From a virus: DNA of 29,294 bases. Below, one piece after another: positions 1 to 29,294 of the stretch (its first letter is position 1; each line of letters opens with the position of its first letter). The position numbers were made by a program, and so were the translations under genes. The stretch spans positions 1 through 29,294 of the IMG/VR virus record IMGVR_UViG_3300000595_000004, one strand, 5' to 3'. The notes below the pieces were generated by a model. The model worked only from the letters and a program-made list of their open reading frames with translations, did not search any database and was not told where the DNA came from.

Positions 1-1366
1 GTATTTGTTGGATATATTTTGTGGCTTGTGCCGTTGGTTCGGGGTCTTTTGCCCATCCTGAATTATCCCATGAGTATTGATTAGCGGCCAATTGATTTTG
101 TATTGCATACCGTGCAGCATCTAATAAGTGATTGAAAAAATCTATTGGAGTACCTGATTTTTTATCGTTCCATGCGTAATTATTTAACTCTTTTATCAGG
201 TTAATACTTTCGGGGTCTATAATTAATTCGTAGTCTTGCAATATTGCTATTCCAGCTGTAATAGAACCTGGGCCTTTTATTGCCTCAATTATATTTAATC
301 CTTTGGCTAATATTTCCGTTATTAATCGAGGTTCTGCACTATCTGCAACAATTAAACTATCCCCTGCATGAAATTTGTTTCTATCGGCTATTTCCGATGT
401 GGTTAACCGCGCTTCATAGAAACATTCTTTTAGATATATCTTTTTATTTGCATGGTCTATTGATGTTTTTATTAGCGTAGTGGGATCGACACTAAAACCA
501 AAATCCTGCCCAAATACCGGAACTGTAATTTCTTTAAATTCCCCTATGCTCCAATTTGTGTAAATTACACCCTCTGCTTTATCAAGCCATCCCCCTTTAA
601 TGATGTGTTTATAGTAATTTGCTTTTTTTAAAATCTTTGGCGGTAATGTTTCTCTTTCGGCAGGTTTAGTATTTAGCCAAATTTCATATCCTTTTCTTTT
701 ATCTTCAAAATCATTCCAAATATTTTCAGGTATAAATTCTCTTTCAATATCTCTATATTCTGCATGGATATAAAGCACGTTATCTTTTATTCCGTTATAT
801 CCCTCTGCTACCCCGTTTGCCTCGAATAATTCTTTGTATATCCAATGCTCTTTCGTTGCAGGGTTAAGTAATAGTATATTTAAGTTTCTTACGTCAAGGG
901 CGCGAATTGACTTTTTAATTTTGTCCCAATTTTCAAAAGATGGCATTTCTTCGGCCTCTTCTAAAATGAACATCGAAAAGTTTTTTAATGACTTTAGATT
1001 TGCGGTTTGATTTCCTGCACTTGTCTTTATGCCCTTGAAAACTATTTTACTATTGTTGAAATTACCGGTTATGCGGTCTTTATTTACTTCAAATGAATTG
1101 TAGCATTCAAGTATATCTATCTTCTCGTTAAATTCGGGTATTATGCTGTCTTCTGCGCTTGTTAAGGTGTAACGGGTATAAAGTATTCTATGGTTAAAGT
1201 CTTTCGCTGCAATGCAGGAAAATAGCCCTGTAGCAAATGATTTTTGACTATATCTACCACCTGTTATGATTACGGTATCAACCCCGAATAACTCATTATC
1301 AGGCAAACAAGAAAGCCACTCAAAAAGTGGCTCATATTTTTCGCTAATTTTTATTTTTTCAGACAT
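1..1366 (-). CDS. terL: Phage terminase large subunit (C-terminus outside window)
   Basis: This is the DNA-packaging motor ATPase and nuclease that loads phage DNA into proheads. The ORF starts at the ATG at 1366, overlapping the small-subunit stop by 8 nt, and stays open to the window edge (455 codons). A Walker A variant GGRYSQKS lies near residues 36-43, and a Walker B with catalytic Glu (FILEEAEE) near 133-140. The RNase H-like nuclease core has FGQDFGFSVDPT near 285, IVADSAEP near 340 and LLDAARYA near 415. The pattern fits the PBSX/Terminase_6 type. At over 450 residues it is probably close to complete. The stop codon is not in the window. Confidence 0.95.
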   Translation of the reverse strand, partial: MSEKIKISEKYEPLFEWLSCLPDNELFGVDTVIITGGRYSQKSFATGLFSCIAAKDFNHRILYTRYTLTSAEDSIIPEFNEKIDILECYNSFEVNKDRITGNFNNSKIVFKGIKTSAGNQTANLKSLKNFSMFILEEAEEMPSFENWDKIKKSIRALDVRNLNILLLNPATKEHWIYKELFEANGVAEGYNGIKDNVLYIHAEYRDIEREFIPENIWNDFEDKRKGYEIWLNTKPAERETLPPKILKKANYYKHIIKGGWLDKAEGVIYTNWSIGEFKEITVPVFGQDFGFSVDPTTLIKTSIDHANKKIYLKECFYEARLTTSEIADRNKFHAGDSLIVADSAEPRLITEILAKGLNIIEAIKGPGSITAGIAILQDYELIIDPESINLIKELNNYAWNDKKSGTPIDFFNHLLDAARYAIQNQLAANQYSWDNSGWAKDPEPTAQATKYIQQI

Positions 1367-1790
1367 TTGCGCCCTTGGTAAAAACTATAGATGTTGGTGT
1401 AAATTTCTCACCGCCTGTAGTATGGTCAATAGATTGATTGTCTTTCCATCCAAATCTATTTTTCATATTCATATACCATCCTGTGTAATTGAAATCCTTA
1501 TTTGATAGATTAGTACGCCCGTTTTTATGCCACCATGTTTCGGATAGTAAACGTCCAATTTTTATTACTTGATTAAATTCTTCTTCTTCCTCAATCCATC
1601 TACTCCAAAGCGTATAAGAGCCAAATCCACATTCATTATATATCAATGCTCTTACCTCTACGTCAGATGCACCTTGTGAATATAGTAATAAAATATCATC
1701 ATGCCATTTATCCCAAAGTAAACTAAGTCCTATTTTTGGTCTTCCACCATCATTATTTACAGCATTTTTATTATCAATTGGCGCTCCCAT
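1359..1790 (-). CDS. terS: Phage terminase small subunit
   Basis: The 143-residue protein probably recognises phage DNA and hands it to the large subunit, whose start codon it overlaps by 8 nt. The N-terminal half (about 17-82) contains GRPKIG, then a helical segment QGASDVEVRALIYNE and LWSRWIEEEEEF, which looks like a helix-turn-helix DNA-binding region. The C-terminal part has NMKNRFGWKDNQSIDHTTGG, a sequence typical of small subunits in Bacteroidota phages. The N-terminal domain is clearly related to the first 72 residues of the gene just upstream, including a 23-nt identical DNA stretch (1654-1676 against 2298-2320). The gap to that gene is 2 nt, so the two are probably co-transcribed. 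Confidence 0.88.
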   Translation of the reverse strand: MGAPIDNKNAVNNDGGRPKIGLSLLWDKWHDDILLLYSQGASDVEVRALIYNECGFGSYTLWSRWIEEEEEFNQVIKIGRLLSETWWHKNGRTNLSNKDFNYTGWYMNMKNRFGWKDNQSIDHTTGGEKFTPTSIVFTKGANV

Positions 1791-1792
1791 AA

Positions 1793-2395
1793 CTACAACC
1801 TGCTACCCTTACTTAAATTGTCAAATGCCCATAATGGATTTAAATTAGATAAACTCCAACATTTACGTAATTCGTTTTCATCTGTTAAATTAAATTTACT
1901 AACGGGTTTAATGTGGTCAATATGCCATGAGCCATAATTGTCAAATGACATGCCATCTTTTAGACTATTTTCTATATGTTGTATATACTCTTGTTTTGAA
2001 TATCCTAAAAGATTAAATGTTTTTTTATTGAATTTACCACTTTTATTTTTTGTATGGTAATTTAGCATTGACCTAAGCGATTGAATAATTTTATTTTCTC
2101 CTTTATATTCAGACTTTCTGTTTTTTCTTCTAATTTCTAATTTTTCAATTAGTTTGCTATTTGTAGGTTTTCTTATATTTGAGCCTCTCAATATCCTGCC
2201 GTTTTTTATGGTTTCACTAAACTCAATTTCTTGTTCCATCCACCGTACCCATAAATCATTTGAAAATGTGCCTCTTAACTCATATATATATGCTTTCACC
2301 TCTACGTCAGATGCACCTTGCTTATATAATTGCAATACTTGTATCTGCCAATCTTTGGGCAAATCAAATTTTTCTAAAGGTCTTCCTGCACTCAT
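1793..2395 (-). CDS. TerS-like DNA-binding domain fused to HNH endonuclease
   Basis: The product is 200 residues from the ATG at 2395; a TTG at 2404 would add three residues. Residues 1-72 match the N-terminus of the small terminase next door: GRPLEKF, QGASDVEV, LWVRWMEQEIEFSETI. A basic linker (73-125) and an LGYSKQEYIQHIE segment follow. The C-terminus is an HNH domain: WHIDHIKPVSKF (His158, Asp160, His161), SLSNLNPLWAFDN and a final Lys. The small-terminase C-terminal signature is absent. It could be a homing endonuclease that captured a terminase DNA-binding domain, or a packaging-associated HNH nuclease like those encoded beside terminases in other phages. The domain calls are firm, but the function is inference. 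Confidence 0.85.
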   Translation of the reverse strand: MSAGRPLEKFDLPKDWQIQVLQLYKQGASDVEVKAYIYELRGTFSNDLWVRWMEQEIEFSETIKNGRILRGSNIRKPTNSKLIEKLEIRRKNRKSEYKGENKIIQSLRSMLNYHTKNKSGKFNKKTFNLLGYSKQEYIQHIENSLKDGMSFDNYGSWHIDHIKPVSKFNLTDENELRKCWSLSNLNPLWAFDNLSKGSRL

Positions 2396-3421: not shown

Positions 3422-3643
3422 ATAATTTCGCCGGTTTTTATGTAGGTGTTAAACGCTAAATCCTGAAATTCCCCCTCACAGTGAAACTTAATGTCGCGTT
3501 CCAAATCTTTATCGGCCTCAACTTCTTTCAGTCGGTCAATCCCGCTTTCATCGATTGCGCTTTGCAACATGCGCCCCGTCAACATCTCCCTCTATCTCGT
3601 AGGTTACTGTTAAGTTATCGTATTGGTAAGTGTAGGTTTTCAC
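3418..3643 (-). pseudogene. Small gene split by a one-base frameshift
   Basis: Reading starts at a GTG at 3643 that overlaps the stop of the preceding gene (GTGA): MKTYTYQYDNLTVTYEIEGD, ending early at 3548. A second frame from about 3585 reads SAIDESGIDRLKEVEADKD, then FHCEGEFQDLAFNTYI, ending at 3418 and coupled as ATGA to the next gene. The whole interval is 226 nt, one base more than 75 codons. Dropping one G from the run of four on the coding strand (gacggggcgc) joins the halves. It could be a true mutation, an assembly error or programmed frameshifting. Both halves look like real protein; the family is unknown. Confidence 0.6.
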
Positions 3644-3927
3644 AATGATTTTAGTTTTTCGGTGCTTTCTTTCAATTGTTTTTCGTAATAATGTTTTATA
3701 TTACTTTTTTCTTTTTTCAACAATTCAGCCGCATCCTTAGCAGTATAAACAACTTGTTTTGCATCAATTATTTCAGGTAAACTTTGGCCATTTTCTATGA
3801 AAAATGCTTTTTTTACTTCATACCAATCTATGTAAGACAAAGTAAATGCAATGCCATGTTTTATATCTTGCCCCCATGAACTTACATAGTATGCTCTTTG
3901 ATATTTAATTATTTCCGGTGTTTTCAT
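3640..3927 (-). CDS. Hypothetical protein, 95 residues
   Basis: Starts MKTPEIIKYQRAYYVSSW. The first two thirds are mixed with many aromatic residues (SYIDWYEVKKAFFIE), and the last third is a charged helix (DAAELLKKEKSNIKHYYEKQLKE) likely to form a coiled coil. The leader contains AACACTTTAAAG and AAACACATAACAATG, the AACAC-rich leader found before many genes here. Its stop overlaps the next start as GTGA. It follows the terminator at 3964-3992. No function is recognised. Confidence 0.7.
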   Translation of the reverse strand: MKTPEIIKYQRAYYVSSWGQDIKHGIAFTLSYIDWYEVKKAFFIENGQSLPEIIDAKQVVYTAKDAAELLKKEKSNIKHYYEKQLKESTEKLKSL

Positions 3928-5996: not shown

Positions 5997-6914
5997 TTAA
6001 AATAATTGTGTTGTGTTTACCGAACCTTTACCATTCCAAAATATTTTTTCAATGGTTTTCTTTTTGTTATTTGTGGCTGATAAACTGGATCGGTGCGTAA
6101 AGGCCATTACTTCAGTAAATGGTGTGGCGTACTCTGAAATATAAACAGGGTAATGCATATCATTTGCCCATTCATAAAACTTTTCATGGTCAAAACCTCC
6201 CTCTTTATATTCCCCTGTTCCTTTGTATGGAATATCGCAGTATATCACAGGATTGTTACCTGAAATTAAAACATTTTCATAACTACCATTTGTTATTTGC
6301 AGGTTTTGCAGGTTTTGCAGTCTTGCAAGGCTTTCTATAAACGCTAAACTTTCTAAGTTCTGCATATCAAACCTATTTTTAGTTAATTTTTCTATGTAAT
6401 CGCAAAATACAACCCTCCTTTTTTGAATGCCTTTTATATTAAATAAGTTAGGTATATCAATATTCAATTTAGTCATAGATTCGGAACAGCAATTAACAAC
6501 TATTTCATGCCCCAATCTTTTTGTTTCTTCAATGTCAGCACCGTAGATATATGAGGATTGTTTATTACCGAAACTCCAGCAACTCATAACAAAACCTGAA
6601 TACCAATCAGCATCGGTACGTTCACACTGTTTAAAGAACTCTTCACGTGTCACCCATTCAAAGAATTTAGGCTCTAATGTTCGATGTGAGCGTAAATAAT
6701 CAACTAAGTGGTATATGTGGCTGTTTAATTCGTTATAATGAACTGTAAATCGGTAATCACGTACAGCAGTAAATGATATAGAACCCCCACCACCAAACAA
6801 ATCATAAAAATCTGATATACCATTATGCCTACTCGTTATAAAATGCAAAATTTCGGATGCCAACTTTCTTTTTGACCCCATGTAACCAATACCTAATTTT
6901 TCTTTAGATGACAT
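5997..6914 (-). CDS. D12-class DNA adenine N6-methyltransferase (Dam-like)
   Basis: The protein transfers a methyl group from S-adenosylmethionine to adenine in DNA. The N-terminus has GYMGSKRKLASEI (residues 10-22) and the SAM-binding loop DLFGGGGSISF (38-48). Motif IV, normally DPPY in Dam enzymes, reads CDIPYKGTGEY (DIPY at 227-230). The length of 305 residues suits the D12 class. Its start overlaps the HNH endonuclease gene upstream by 11 nt. It could protect phage DNA from restriction or mark it for packaging. The target is not known; GATC, the usual Dam site, is scarce in this window. A 9-bp tandem repeat at 6296-6320 encodes LQNLQNLQ. Confidence 0.88.
   Translation of the reverse strand: MSSKEKLGIGYMGSKRKLASEILHFITSRHNGISDFYDLFGGGGSISFTAVRDYRFTVHYNELNSHIYHLVDYLRSHRTLEPKFFEWVTREEFFKQCERTDADWYSGFVMSCWSFGNKQSSYIYGADIEETKRLGHEIVVNCCSESMTKLNIDIPNLFNIKGIQKRRVVFCDYIEKLTKNRFDMQNLESLAFIESLARLQNLQNLQITNGSYENVLISGNNPVIYCDIPYKGTGEYKEGGFDHEKFYEWANDMHYPVYISEYATPFTEVMAFTHRSSLSATNNKKKTIEKIFWNGKGSVNTTQLF
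6296..6320. repeat. Short 9-bp tandem repeat inside the adenine methyltransferase gene
   Basis: The unit aggttttgc occurs twice in a row (6301-6309, 6310-6318) with partial copies on both sides. It is in frame and encodes Leu-Gln-Asn repeats. Copy-number change would keep the frame. Confidence 0.7.
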
Positions 6915-7422
6915 TTTTATATGATTTTAAAGAGCGTATCCGACTTATTATAGCTAATGACACATTATATTCAGCAGCTATATTTGTAACTGTTTCTTTA
7001 GATTTTCTAATATCAAGTATTTGTTGGGGTGAAAATTTAGCCATTTTATTATAACTACCTATGGAATTATTTAACCCTAAATCACGGGCATGTTTAAGGT
7101 TTTCGGCGGCGGTACACCATTCCAAATTCCAATCGTTATTATTATCCTTATCGCCGTCAATATGATTGACCTGCGGCTTATTTTCAGGGTTAGGAATGAA
7201 GTATAAAGCAACTAATCTATGTAAGCTAAATCTTTTAACATTCCCATCGACCGATACATCTATGTAATTATAGCCATTCGGTGTTCGCCAAACATTTAAA
7301 TATCTTTCAGGATGTGTTTTTGTTTGATTTCCAAAAGCGGTAATAATTTCTTCTGCTTTAATTCTGCCAAAATTAGAGACAAAATACCCTTCAAAATTTT
7401 CTATCTGTTTCCAAATTTCCAT
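6904..7422 (-). CDS. HNH homing endonuclease with NUMOD4-type N-terminus
   Basis: The first part, EIWKQIENFEGYFVSNFGRI, is the NUMOD4 DNA-binding element. It is followed by a beta region (YNYIDVSVDG) and the HNH core LHRLVALYFIPNP, QVNHIDGDKDNN and NLEWCTAAENLKHA. The C-terminus (FSPQQILDIRKSKETVTNIA, AEYNVSLAIISRIRS) is a helix-turn-helix. This is the layout of free-standing phage HNH endonucleases of the SPO1/I-HmuI type. Such genes spread by cutting an allele that lacks them, usually close to their own position, so the adjoining methyltransferase region is the likely target. The 172-residue length is typical and the gene looks intact. Confidence 0.9.
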   Translation of the reverse strand: MEIWKQIENFEGYFVSNFGRIKAEEIITAFGNQTKTHPERYLNVWRTPNGYNYIDVSVDGNVKRFSLHRLVALYFIPNPENKPQVNHIDGDKDNNNDWNLEWCTAAENLKHARDLGLNNSIGSYNKMAKFSPQQILDIRKSKETVTNIAAEYNVSLAIISRIRSLKSYKNVI

Positions 7423-9750: not shown

Positions 9751-10611
9751 TTACAAGTGTTTAAATATGTGTTTTATAGAACCGATAGTCCAACCATCTC
9801 CTAATAATGAAGCAGCATCGTTTCTGCTTAAAATATTCGTCCAACCGTCAGGAACATTCTGCAATCGTTCCATTTCTAATTGGCTCATATATCTAATTCC
9901 TTTTTTCCAATCGAGTGAGGCATCTTCAAATATGTAAGTAGTAAAGCCTTTTTGATGGCGTTTAAACATGCGCTCTTGACTTTTAATTGAATTTGGCCTA
10001 CTCCATCCCTCCATTATGCAAGTTGACTTTAAACGGTCTGTATAACCATGTTCCAAAATGTCCTGTAGTTTTATTCTTAAATCTTTTGGCTGACTTATAC
10101 CGCACATGTTATCATTGAAAAAACCGCCTTTAATCAACCCAATATCAGTCCAATATAATCTATCTCGTTGCTGTGCCGAAACTAACCTGCTATCAATATT
10201 AATCGGCAATACGTTCATATATTTTGATATTACCCAATAATCAGCATCGGTCATAATTACGTTTTCAAGCAAAAATTTCATGTTTGGATTGATGGCTTTC
10301 AATTCATTGTATAGCCTTAAATAATGAAAAAATAGAATACTTTTTTCACCAGCTAAACCCAATCTGTCTTTATTTGCGCGGCTTAAATCTTGACATGGTG
10401 AACCGCCTACATATAAATCAATATGGCCAATATCTTCGCCTTTTATTAATTTAATATCCCCTAATTGAATTGTATTTGGGAACTTGTGCTGCGTTAATTG
10501 TATAGCCTTTGGTTTTATTTCACTTGCATAGTAAACATCGGGTATAATTCCCAATTCCATTAATGCGATTTGAGCGCATGACATCCCGTCGAATCCACTA
10601 AATACTCTCAT
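9751..10611 (-). CDS. DNA C5-cytosine methyltransferase
   Basis: The enzyme methylates cytosine at carbon 5 using S-adenosylmethionine. Motif I is FSGFDGM (residues 4-10), motif IV GGSPCQDLS with catalytic Cys73 (69-77), motif VI LLENV (114-118), motif VIII SAQQRDRLYW (145-154), motif IX RYMSQLEMERLQNVPDGW (240-257) and motif X GDGWTIGSI. The target-recognition part is short and the total of 286 residues is compact, resembling DNMT3-like phage enzymes. Its start overlaps the upstream stop by 4 nt. No restriction partner is near, so self-protection or regulation is more likely than a full restriction system. Target unknown. Confidence 0.93.
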   Translation of the reverse strand: MRVFSGFDGMSCAQIALMELGIIPDVYYASEIKPKAIQLTQHKFPNTIQLGDIKLIKGEDIGHIDLYVGGSPCQDLSRANKDRLGLAGEKSILFFHYLRLYNELKAINPNMKFLLENVIMTDADYWVISKYMNVLPINIDSRLVSAQQRDRLYWTDIGLIKGGFFNDNMCGISQPKDLRIKLQDILEHGYTDRLKSTCIMEGWSRPNSIKSQERMFKRHQKGFTTYIFEDASLDWKKGIRYMSQLEMERLQNVPDGWTNILSRNDAASLLGDGWTIGSIKHIFKHL

Positions 10612-27353: not shown

Positions 27354-29294
27354 TTAATACCAAGTTGTTGTGCCGCTATCATAAGTTAAATGATATTGGC
27401 CGCCCTGTGCGATAGTTGTCAACCCACCTACAACAGTTCCTCCTGAGTAATTGATAGTTGTAACTGATTGTGTAAATGTAATGTCTACCTTGTCGTTATT
27501 TGAAGGTGATGAAGGTAAAGCAAGTGTAACGGTAACTAATGAACCTGCCGGATTAATAATATTTTCCTGGTTATTAACAAGCGTAACAGTACCTCCCGTA
27601 GTCGGGGTAAAAATAGTATGAGACCTAGATGTATTTAGGGTAGTTCCGCTAAAACTTAAACCATTCCCAAGAGTTATTTCAGCTACAGCCGTACCACTAC
27701 CTGAACCCAATAACTTGTTTGTTGTCATTGCCTGCATCTTTGCATAGGTAACAGCATTAGCCAACAGGTTACTTGTTGCTACAGTAACCGAACTTGGCAG
27801 CGTGGTAACCGTTGCGCCAGTGGCATCAAACATTTGTGAGGCTGTACCTGTTCCTAAAATAAATGGATAATTTGTTCCGGAAATATTGGCCCAATATTTT
27901 CCGCTATAATGGTACACAGCACCATCGGTTATTACCGTTGGTAGTGAAGTGAGTGTTGTTAAATATATAGGAGCACTATCAAATGTCGTATTGATGATTT
28001 GAATCCCAGTAAGCCCTACAGTATTTACAATTACACTGAAACCGGTAGTCCCACCAATATTAGCTGACGAAGCGCTCAGTATATCAGTCGCTGTATATCC
28101 AGTTCCTCCAACTACAGGAGTTACAACAGTTACACCTCCGGCTGATACTGTAATGTCTGCTGTCGCGCCAGTGCCTGTACCTCCGGTAAGGGGCACTTTA
28201 AGATAGCTCCCGCTTGTTCCACCTGACCCTGCTGTTATTGCCCCGTAGGTAGACACCGCCGTAGTTCCAAGATTGAATACAGGTGATATATTAGCCCCTC
28301 TCAATACATCGTTATTCTTAGCTGCTGTGAGTGTTGTATTTACTCTAACCGCCTGCGCAAGTGCCGAACTTGCTGTTACTGATGACTGTACTTGCAATGG
28401 ATATAAACCAGCACCAGCACCACCTATAAAAAGCGAACCATTTGATGCAAATCCAAACTTATTGGATCCGGAAAACGCTCCTGATAGGATATTGCCAGTG
28501 CCTTGATTGTTATTGATTGTAAACGTTGCATTTGCGTCATTAATGTTTCTGCTCGCGATGATACCTGTTGAATTGAGCAGTATCTGCCCGTTGCTTATTG
28601 ATGAGTTATTGAATATCCCCGGCAATGCAGTTAGACCAGTTGGATTAACCCTAAACAGGTTGTTACCTAAGTAATCCTGAACTAAAACATGGTCTGATGT
28701 TTGCCCTTGAACGGATTGAATATACACGCCTGTATTATTTAAACTGCCTGTGTTTACCGATAATGCCGGTGTGGATAAGGTATTTATGCCAGTGAACTTA
28801 CCGGTAGTTGCGGTAATACTTTTATGTGTAACATCTGAAAATGTGCCTAAATCTTGATTGAGATAAACATTCCCGCCAGCCGTTTCTATTACAGGGGTTG
28901 AAGTAGATGCTGTAAATGTTACACCTGAATAAATAGCAGTTCCTAAGGCAGCGCCTCCAGTGCTATTGTAGTGCAAACCATCGCCGCTATCATACGCAGG
29001 ATTAAGATTGGCTGTATGCGCAGGATCAGCTTCTACGGTTGCTGCATCTATAACGTAATTAACACCTGTAATCGTTCCGCTTGTTATCGCTGTGTTTACG
29101 GCTAACCTCGCTGTTTCCAGTCCAGCTGTCCAACTTACATTGGTCCCAAATGGCATTATGGTCATTAATATAACTTTGTATCCGGCAGAGGTAGCCGATG
29201 TACACATTGACTGCAAGTATGACTGTATTTGCACAGCAGAATACCCTCCAACTAAGTCATTAACGCCACCCATTATTATAACATATTCTCCGCC
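27354..29294 (-). CDS. Tail fibre/appendage protein with SGNH hydrolase end (N-terminus outside window)
   Basis: The frame is open to the right edge, so the N-terminus is missing; at least 646 residues are present. The first part has VIIMGGVNDL (block III of SGNH/GDSL hydrolases) and DSGDGLHYNSTGGAALGTAI (block V with DxxH). The missing N-terminus should carry the nucleophile Ser block. Beta-rich tail-fibre sequence follows, with GGTGTGATADITVSAGGVT and VGGTGYTATDILS, then NKLLGSGSGTAVAEITLG and GLSFSGTTLN, familiar from phage fibres. The end DSGTTTWY is typical. It may bind and deacetylate or de-esterify a surface polysaccharide. Confidence 0.85.
   Translation of the reverse strand, partial: GGEYVIIMGGVNDLVGGYSAVQIQSYLQSMCTSATSAGYKVILMTIMPFGTNVSWTAGLETARLAVNTAITSGTITGVNYVIDAATVEADPAHTANLNPAYDSGDGLHYNSTGGAALGTAIYSGVTFTASTSTPVIETAGGNVYLNQDLGTFSDVTHKSITATTGKFTGINTLSTPALSVNTGSLNNTGVYIQSVQGQTSDHVLVQDYLGNNLFRVNPTGLTALPGIFNNSSISNGQILLNSTGIIASRNINDANATFTINNNQGTGNILSGAFSGSNKFGFASNGSLFIGGAGAGLYPLQVQSSVTASSALAQAVRVNTTLTAAKNNDVLRGANISPVFNLGTTAVSTYGAITAGSGGTSGSYLKVPLTGGTGTGATADITVSAGGVTVVTPVVGGTGYTATDILSASSANIGGTTGFSVIVNTVGLTGIQIINTTFDSAPIYLTTLTSLPTVITDGAVYHYSGKYWANISGTNYPFILGTGTASQMFDATGATVTTLPSSVTVATSNLLANAVTYAKMQAMTTNKLLGSGSGTAVAEITLGNGLSFSGTTLNTSRSHTIFTPTTGGTVTLVNNQENIINPAGSLVTVTLALPSSPSNNDKVDITFTQSVTTINYSGGTVVGGLTTIAQGGQYHLTYDSGTTTWY

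Follow-up and report, generated by a model that had tools for sequence, protein, structure and literature searches.

The WHO elements of the yeasts Torulaspora and Lachancea are nuclease genes situated inside an essential gene, with no need for intron or intein splicing. At each integration they replace the 3′ end of FBA1 with a version that confers resistance, and the old end is left as a fragment (PMC7282813). Mobile ORFs in the mitochondrial genes atp6, atp9, cox2 and nad3 of the fungi Allomyces and Glomus also combine an endonuclease ORF with a foreign replacement terminus, in this case the C-terminus, and the native terminus is displaced; the nuclease in Glomus is of the LAGLIDADG or GIY-YIG type (PMC3630166). 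Intronless homing is known from T4 SegF and MobE, sporadic nuclease genes located by essential genes and characterized by co-conversion and overlapping start and stop codons (PMC2988022). In Odn of phage ICP1, a T5orf172 nuclease acting on satellite origins is fused to a RepA_N DNA-binding domain that is also found in a protein of another element, while HNH genes of the HK97 gp74 type are placed directly upstream of terminase genes, as the same paper describes (PMC10448857).

The element described in this study, located in the small terminase gene (terS), has features in common with each of these systems. As in WHO, a nuclease gene lies inside an essential gene, a replacement for one end of that gene is brought in and the old end remains. 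By analogy, the terS element is the mirror image of the yeast WHO elements and the fungal mitochondrial mobile ORFs, with the 5′ end of the gene being replaced; unlike in WHO, the displaced terS fragment is fused in frame to the nuclease. The WHO nuclease is intein-derived and carries zinc fingers, whereas the terS element encodes an endonuclease VII-like HNH protein. Because this protein is of the phrog_1035 type and Pfam gave no zinc-finger match in the fusion, the terS element is not a WHO member by descent. SegF and MobE differ in lying between intact genes, with no split target gene and no replacement half, and Odn has no reconstituted target gene beside it. No TerS domain is described for the gp74-type genes in PMC10448857, and the fusion gene differs from them in its sporadic occurrence. 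In the literature searched, which was limited in extent, we found no paper linking WHO elements with phages and no description of half-gene replacement for terS.

Organization of the terS locus in the window

The analyzed DNA (the window) is an IMG/VR virus contig of 29,294 bases. The HNH fusion gene (ATG at 2395), terS and the large terminase gene terL follow one another on its minus strand (Table 1), and the ATG of terS lies 2 nt past the nuclease stop codon.

Table 1. Features of the terS locus in the window and their proposed origin.
Feature	Position	Strand	Basis	Proposed origin
HNH fusion gene, 200 aa, TerS-like N-domain and endonuclease VII-like HNH domain	1793..2395	-	ORF list; phrog_1035, E 1e-13; BLASTP	
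Fusion residues 1-70, an N-domain of TerS type with three helices and the start of helix 4	2186..2395	-		Putative displaced 5′ half of the earlier terS at this site (analogy with L180 and MPK9)
HNH nuclease part, WHIDHI...N...N at residues 157-193	1796..2185	-	Profile; conserved residues	Start of the putative inserted cassette, border set by analogy with L180
terS, 143 aa	1359..1790	-	phrog_309, E 1e-5; AlphaFold model weakly Sf6 TerS-like	Putative reconstituted chimera
Putative replacement TerS N-domain	1545..1790	-	≤62% identity to relatives among the matches listed	Would have arrived with the cassette
Putative inherited TerS 3′ half	1362..1544	-	Conserved core with 89% aa identity to L003; nt alignment with L003	
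23-nt stretch in terS, identical to 2298-2320	1654..1676	-		
23-nt stretch in the fusion gene, identical to 1654-1676	2298..2320	-		
terL, cut by the contig end	1..1372	-	phrog_5653, E 9e-36	

The first-pass annotation had described the fusion as an HNH nuclease joined to a copy of the phage's own small-terminase domain. The likeness of the N-domain to TerS is real: residues 2-68 of the fusion align with TerS residues 15-82 at 51% identity (BLASTP, E 4e-18), and for the window fusion the link to TerS was made through this BLASTP match, not directly by the profile. The phrog_309 (TerS) profile was found directly in the N-parts of three other fusions, L391, L404 and MPK9; the E-values obtained on fusion N-parts were 7.5e-8 (L391), 2.5e-6 (L404) and 9e-5 (L084). 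As a description of its origin, however, a copy of the phage's own domain is too simple, because the fused domain is closer to the TerS proteins of other phages (L045, 73%; L057, 70%; L064, 69%; the top among the matches listed) than to its neighbour. The 23-nt identity between the two genes, also noticed earlier, was confirmed as exact, while the aligned flanking DNA is 58% identical (95/164). Under independent codon choice for the same peptide such a match has P ~0.0014, and all family relatives are at least 3 mismatches away from the stretch. It is possibly a short gene-conversion tract.

Assignment of the remaining part to the HNH nucleases was borne out by the phrog_1035 ("endonuclease VII") match, which spans residues 88-198, but the Pfam HNH score fell below the cut-off and Foldseek returned no HNH-nuclease match. 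The WHIDHI...N...N residues are largely invariant among relatives, and the catalytic motif is intact, with H158, D160, H161, N184 and N193 invariant in five fusions. AlphaFold predicts for the fusion (pLDDT 88) three N-terminal helices and the start of a fourth, followed by the nuclease part with a β-hairpin, and for TerS (pLDDT 81.5) three helices that precede a long helix and one more helix. The break in the Bacteroidota-type fusions falls between the three-helix N-domain and the core. The best PDB matches of the TerS model were to Sf6 TerS, a weak similarity since E was 0.2 despite a probability of 0.97; a search of solved structures by sequence gave no matches. An intein or a group I intron was set aside, as each of the two genes has a start and a stop codon of its own and no Rfam match was found in the window.

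The nearest phage by terL is L003 (79% aa identity; 73% nt identity over terL-terS), which has an uninterrupted terS; the search among relatives turned up none that is both close to the window and empty. The window TerS looks mosaic, because the core of its C-terminal half shares 89% identity with L003 but the N-terminal half only 57%. With weak support, the affinities of both the fused domain and the TerS core lie on the L003/L045/L057 side of the family, and those of the present TerS N-domain lie elsewhere in it.

Elsewhere in the window, a second HNH gene unrelated to the fusion (6904-7422, minus strand; phrog_59) directly precedes a DNA methyltransferase gene (5997-6914), and another methyltransferase is encoded at 9751-10611. 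A 639-aa ORF (27354-29273, minus strand) gave no PHROG match at E 0.001.

Recurrence of the fusion in two HNH clades

A search for the same domain order revealed that the fusion recurs in two separate HNH clades and in at least 14 lineages; the lineage and locus counts are lower bounds among the matches listed. Used alone as a query, the window fusion had no close relatives in IMG/VR or GTDB, and profile scans were needed to find them. With TerS as the query, at least 80 loci with a related TerS were distinguished among the matches listed, none of them with the window-type HNH domain. The first set comprises the full-length relatives obtained by the profile scan (L174-L180). The second set has the Proteobacterial TerS type and includes MPK9, L097, L105, L231-L233, L391, L404, L470 and the genomes of a Bordetella and a Stenotrophomonas, the latter with an unrelated terS adjoining its fusion. 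In a tree of 219 HNH domains, computed before L391, L404 and L470 were found, each set forms one clade (SH-aLRT 91 each; 0/500 shuffles) and the two clades lie apart; by its HNH domain, the window fusion is a member of the first.

In nine measured loci the start of terS overlaps the nuclease stop by 4-20 nt. Among 252 distinct HNH ORFs surveyed, nearly all cases of an N-part similar to the next gene downstream, itself not HNH, were terS fusions. In L321, L297 and L124 the likeness between N-part and neighbour is zinc-ribbon-like and concerns genes other than terS, and these cases were discarded. Another candidate, the "HNH homing endonuclease" of ON470594 and ON470589 (L455 and L456, both 3483-3923), matches TerS and is too short for a fusion; this gene, in the TerS position, is probably misannotated.

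The partner of the nuclease varies. In L176, L178 and L180 the TerS encoded behind it has an N-domain of a different type (giving Pfam HTH matches in L176) and a conserved C-terminal half. In L174/L175 and L306 the gene downstream of the fusion is not of the window TerS type; the fusion can therefore persist after its first neighbour has gone, and the L174/L175 fusion has lost its original terS partner. This window-type fusion (3113-3772 in L175) is followed by a small ORF of another type, with terL some 1.8 kb downstream. The N-domain of the Proteobacterial clade is a distinct conserved variant, and it persists even in L306, where the adjacent TerS is unrelated. The N-domain tree tests, which are underpowered at 65 columns, did not reject monophyly for the five fused N-domains of Bacteroidota type (p-AU 0.36).

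Insertion of HNH cassettes into terS

Comparison of relatives with and without the fusion, which had been suggested at the outset, yielded two independent pairs of occupied and empty loci, and in both the HNH cassette lies inside terS. The first pair consists of the occupied IMG/VR contig L180 (and L179) and the empty contigs L081, L082, L224, L225 and L227. On the 5′ side, L180 3778-4270 corresponds to L081 1-493 (97% nt identity), and on the 3′ side L180 4849-6519 corresponds to L081 477-2147 (94%), through terS and terL. At the 5′ junction identity breaks off sharply around terS codon 66. On the 3′ side it is regained no more than 90 nt further on, inside the conserved GWYMNMKNRF core, in the manner of a co-conversion tract; the net insertion is 595 bp. 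Since the upstream DNA through codon ~66 is 97% identical, the N-terminus of the L180 nuclease is the displaced 5′ half of the resident terS. In the tree, the fused N-domain of L180 pairs with the L081 TerS (support 100/80). The displaced domain differs from that of L081 by four synonymous changes and one non-synonymous change in 66 codons, a dN/dS that covers the time before and after displacement together.

The second pair comes from cultured Pseudomonas phages: MPK9 is occupied (as is the IMG/VR contig L232), whereas terS is uninterrupted in YA3, which is temperate on PA14 (PMC7326022), and in HB2107-3I. In the MPK9 nuclease gene, codons 1-30 correspond to codons 1-30 of YA3 terS (85/91 nt), after which identity ends abruptly; the upstream DNA through nuclease codon 30 is 98.7% identical to HB2107-3I. 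The 3′ part of MPK9 terS resumes near codon 70, with a net insertion of +514 bp. Most of the IMG/VR loci are metagenome assemblies, the first pair being present in two occupied contigs and the second in GenBank genomes.

Insertion with one half of terS displaced and replaced by another has thus been shown to have occurred at least twice, independently. In the relatives, a cassette of roughly 0.5-0.6 kb contains the HNH nuclease domain, a stop codon and, beginning with a start codon of its own, an entire TerS N-domain that differs from the resident one. The 5′ part of the resident terS is left where it was and now encodes, in frame, the N-terminus of the nuclease, as in L180 and MPK9. An intact TerS is still encoded, because the resident 3′ part is joined to the new N-domain of the cassette; in both pairs the present TerS is a chimera of cassette N-domain and resident 3′ core. 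A replacement part that rebuilds the interrupted terS is present in L180 relative to L081 and in MPK9 relative to YA3, and by analogy it may be assumed for the window. Clade membership suggests an insertion in the window too, where the copy of the element would be an older one.

Exchange at this position also takes other forms. In the TerL relatives of the window (L358-L386), the TerS body upstream of terL is swapped for unrelated types, and in several of them the C-terminal tail (DHTT.GE...IVFTKG) stays with terL. The Pseudomonas phages Shamal, FBPa42 and FBPa19 (L458, L459 and L462) share the YA3/MPK9 locus and have a wholly unrelated 211-aa TerS between matching flanks. The terS gene is an exchange hotspot even without the nuclease. 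In L105 (6927-9233) and L321 (2476-5679), large terminase ORFs are seemingly interrupted by intein-like sequence (CLAGDTLIAMADG... and CSLKGTYISTPSG..., respectively); terL may thus harbour selfish elements too.

Proposed homing and alternative explanations

The best explanation for these loci, to which we assign a probability of about 0.76, is a homing-endonuclease element living inside terS, with a displaced 5′ fragment and a replacement 5′ half. For this element we infer cleavage, mobility, homing driven by double-strand breaks, immunity and translational coupling. The nuclease would cut empty terS alleles near the boundary between N-domain and core, and repair would copy the cassette in, with the terS 5′ fragment and the conserved 3′ core serving as homology arms. 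The replacement 5′ half, proposed to lack the cut site, is probably uncuttable, and the occupied allele would therefore be immune. Nuclease and new TerS would be expressed from the old terS promoter and start, TerS being translationally coupled to the nuclease stop, and the displaced 5′ fragment would provide the nuclease with promoter, start and homology arm. The earlier idea of a homing endonuclease that took over a packaging domain came close to this, but it missed the insertion and the replacement: in the two relatives with an empty counterpart, the nuclease carries the 5′ part of the recipient's terS because the element sits inside that gene, and the neighbouring "intact" terS is the chimera.

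The first-pass annotation had also considered a packaging factor. As such, the nuclease would help TerS and TerL to cut pac or cos by means of the same DNA-binding domain, and its position directly upstream of terS, usually overlapping it, is in keeping with this, as is HK97 gp74, an HNH protein upstream of the terminase that aids cos cleavage (as described in PMC10448857). However, none of the 28 TerL relatives examined has the gene, and it is also missing from the viable sister phages YA3 and HB2107-3I. Being sporadic at a fixed site, it is not a conserved part of the packaging module, and the related HNH family adjoins primase, capsid and helicase genes in other phages. We regard a packaging accessory as highly improbable. 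A domesticated nuclease comparable to Odn, in which the TerS DNA-binding domain of a rival directs the HNH domain against the packaging site of a competitor, either phage or satellite, is unlikely, although there is a precedent in ICP1 Odn and Gp5, which carry the RepA_N domain of the attacked satellite (PMC10448857). It would account for the near identity of the L180 domain to the TerS of sister phages, for a fused piece that in the window is the whole three-helix N-domain, and for the conserved variant in the Proteobacterial clade. It leaves unexplained why one and the same sister phage is matched both by the DNA preceding the nuclease and by the 3′ half of the terS next to it, and why the TerS N-domain has been replaced; in MPK9 the freshly acquired part, at only 30 codons, falls short of a full domain. 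Such a weapon is conceivable as a secondary role, because the conserved N-domain of the Proteobacterial clade is kept beside an unrelated terS, and the fused domain may be used to find a DNA site. Both the packaging role and the Odn-like weapon are compatible with an origin by homing.

For the window copy, an alternative without homing is that a duplicate of the 5′ half of terS arose within this phage and was taken up by an adjacent HNH gene. Since the tree does not reject the two N-domains of the window as sisters (p-AU 0.18), this origin keeps a slight chance there, and the 23-nt identity could be its remnant. It is nevertheless the least probable of the explanations considered: the fused domain shares 73% identity with the TerS of other phages vs 51% with its neighbour, in L176, L178 and L180 the neighbouring TerS has another type of N-domain, and the empty/occupied pairs show insertion with replacement. 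Plain gene duplication was likewise set aside.

In some phages the TerS DNA-binding domain reads a pac site in or near terS. A tentative and rather doubtful extension of the homing explanation is that each insertion re-aims the nuclease: fusion to the DNA-binding domain of the recipient's TerS would target it to the terS or pac of the population just entered, and the carried-in half would change the packaging specificity of the host, resulting in immunity.

In bacteriophages, the terS element appears to represent a new way in which a selfish gene can reside within an essential gene and leave its host unharmed. Within the limited literature searched, it is the first phage case in which one gene half is displaced and a spare is brought along, with no intron, intein or damage. 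Homing of this kind would explain part of the rapid exchange of TerS N-domains and would make TerS specificity a by-product of selfish-gene spread. MPK9 and YA3 on PA14 constitute a cultured, directly testable pair. Convergence with the yeast WHO elements would make half-gene replacement a general homing strategy.
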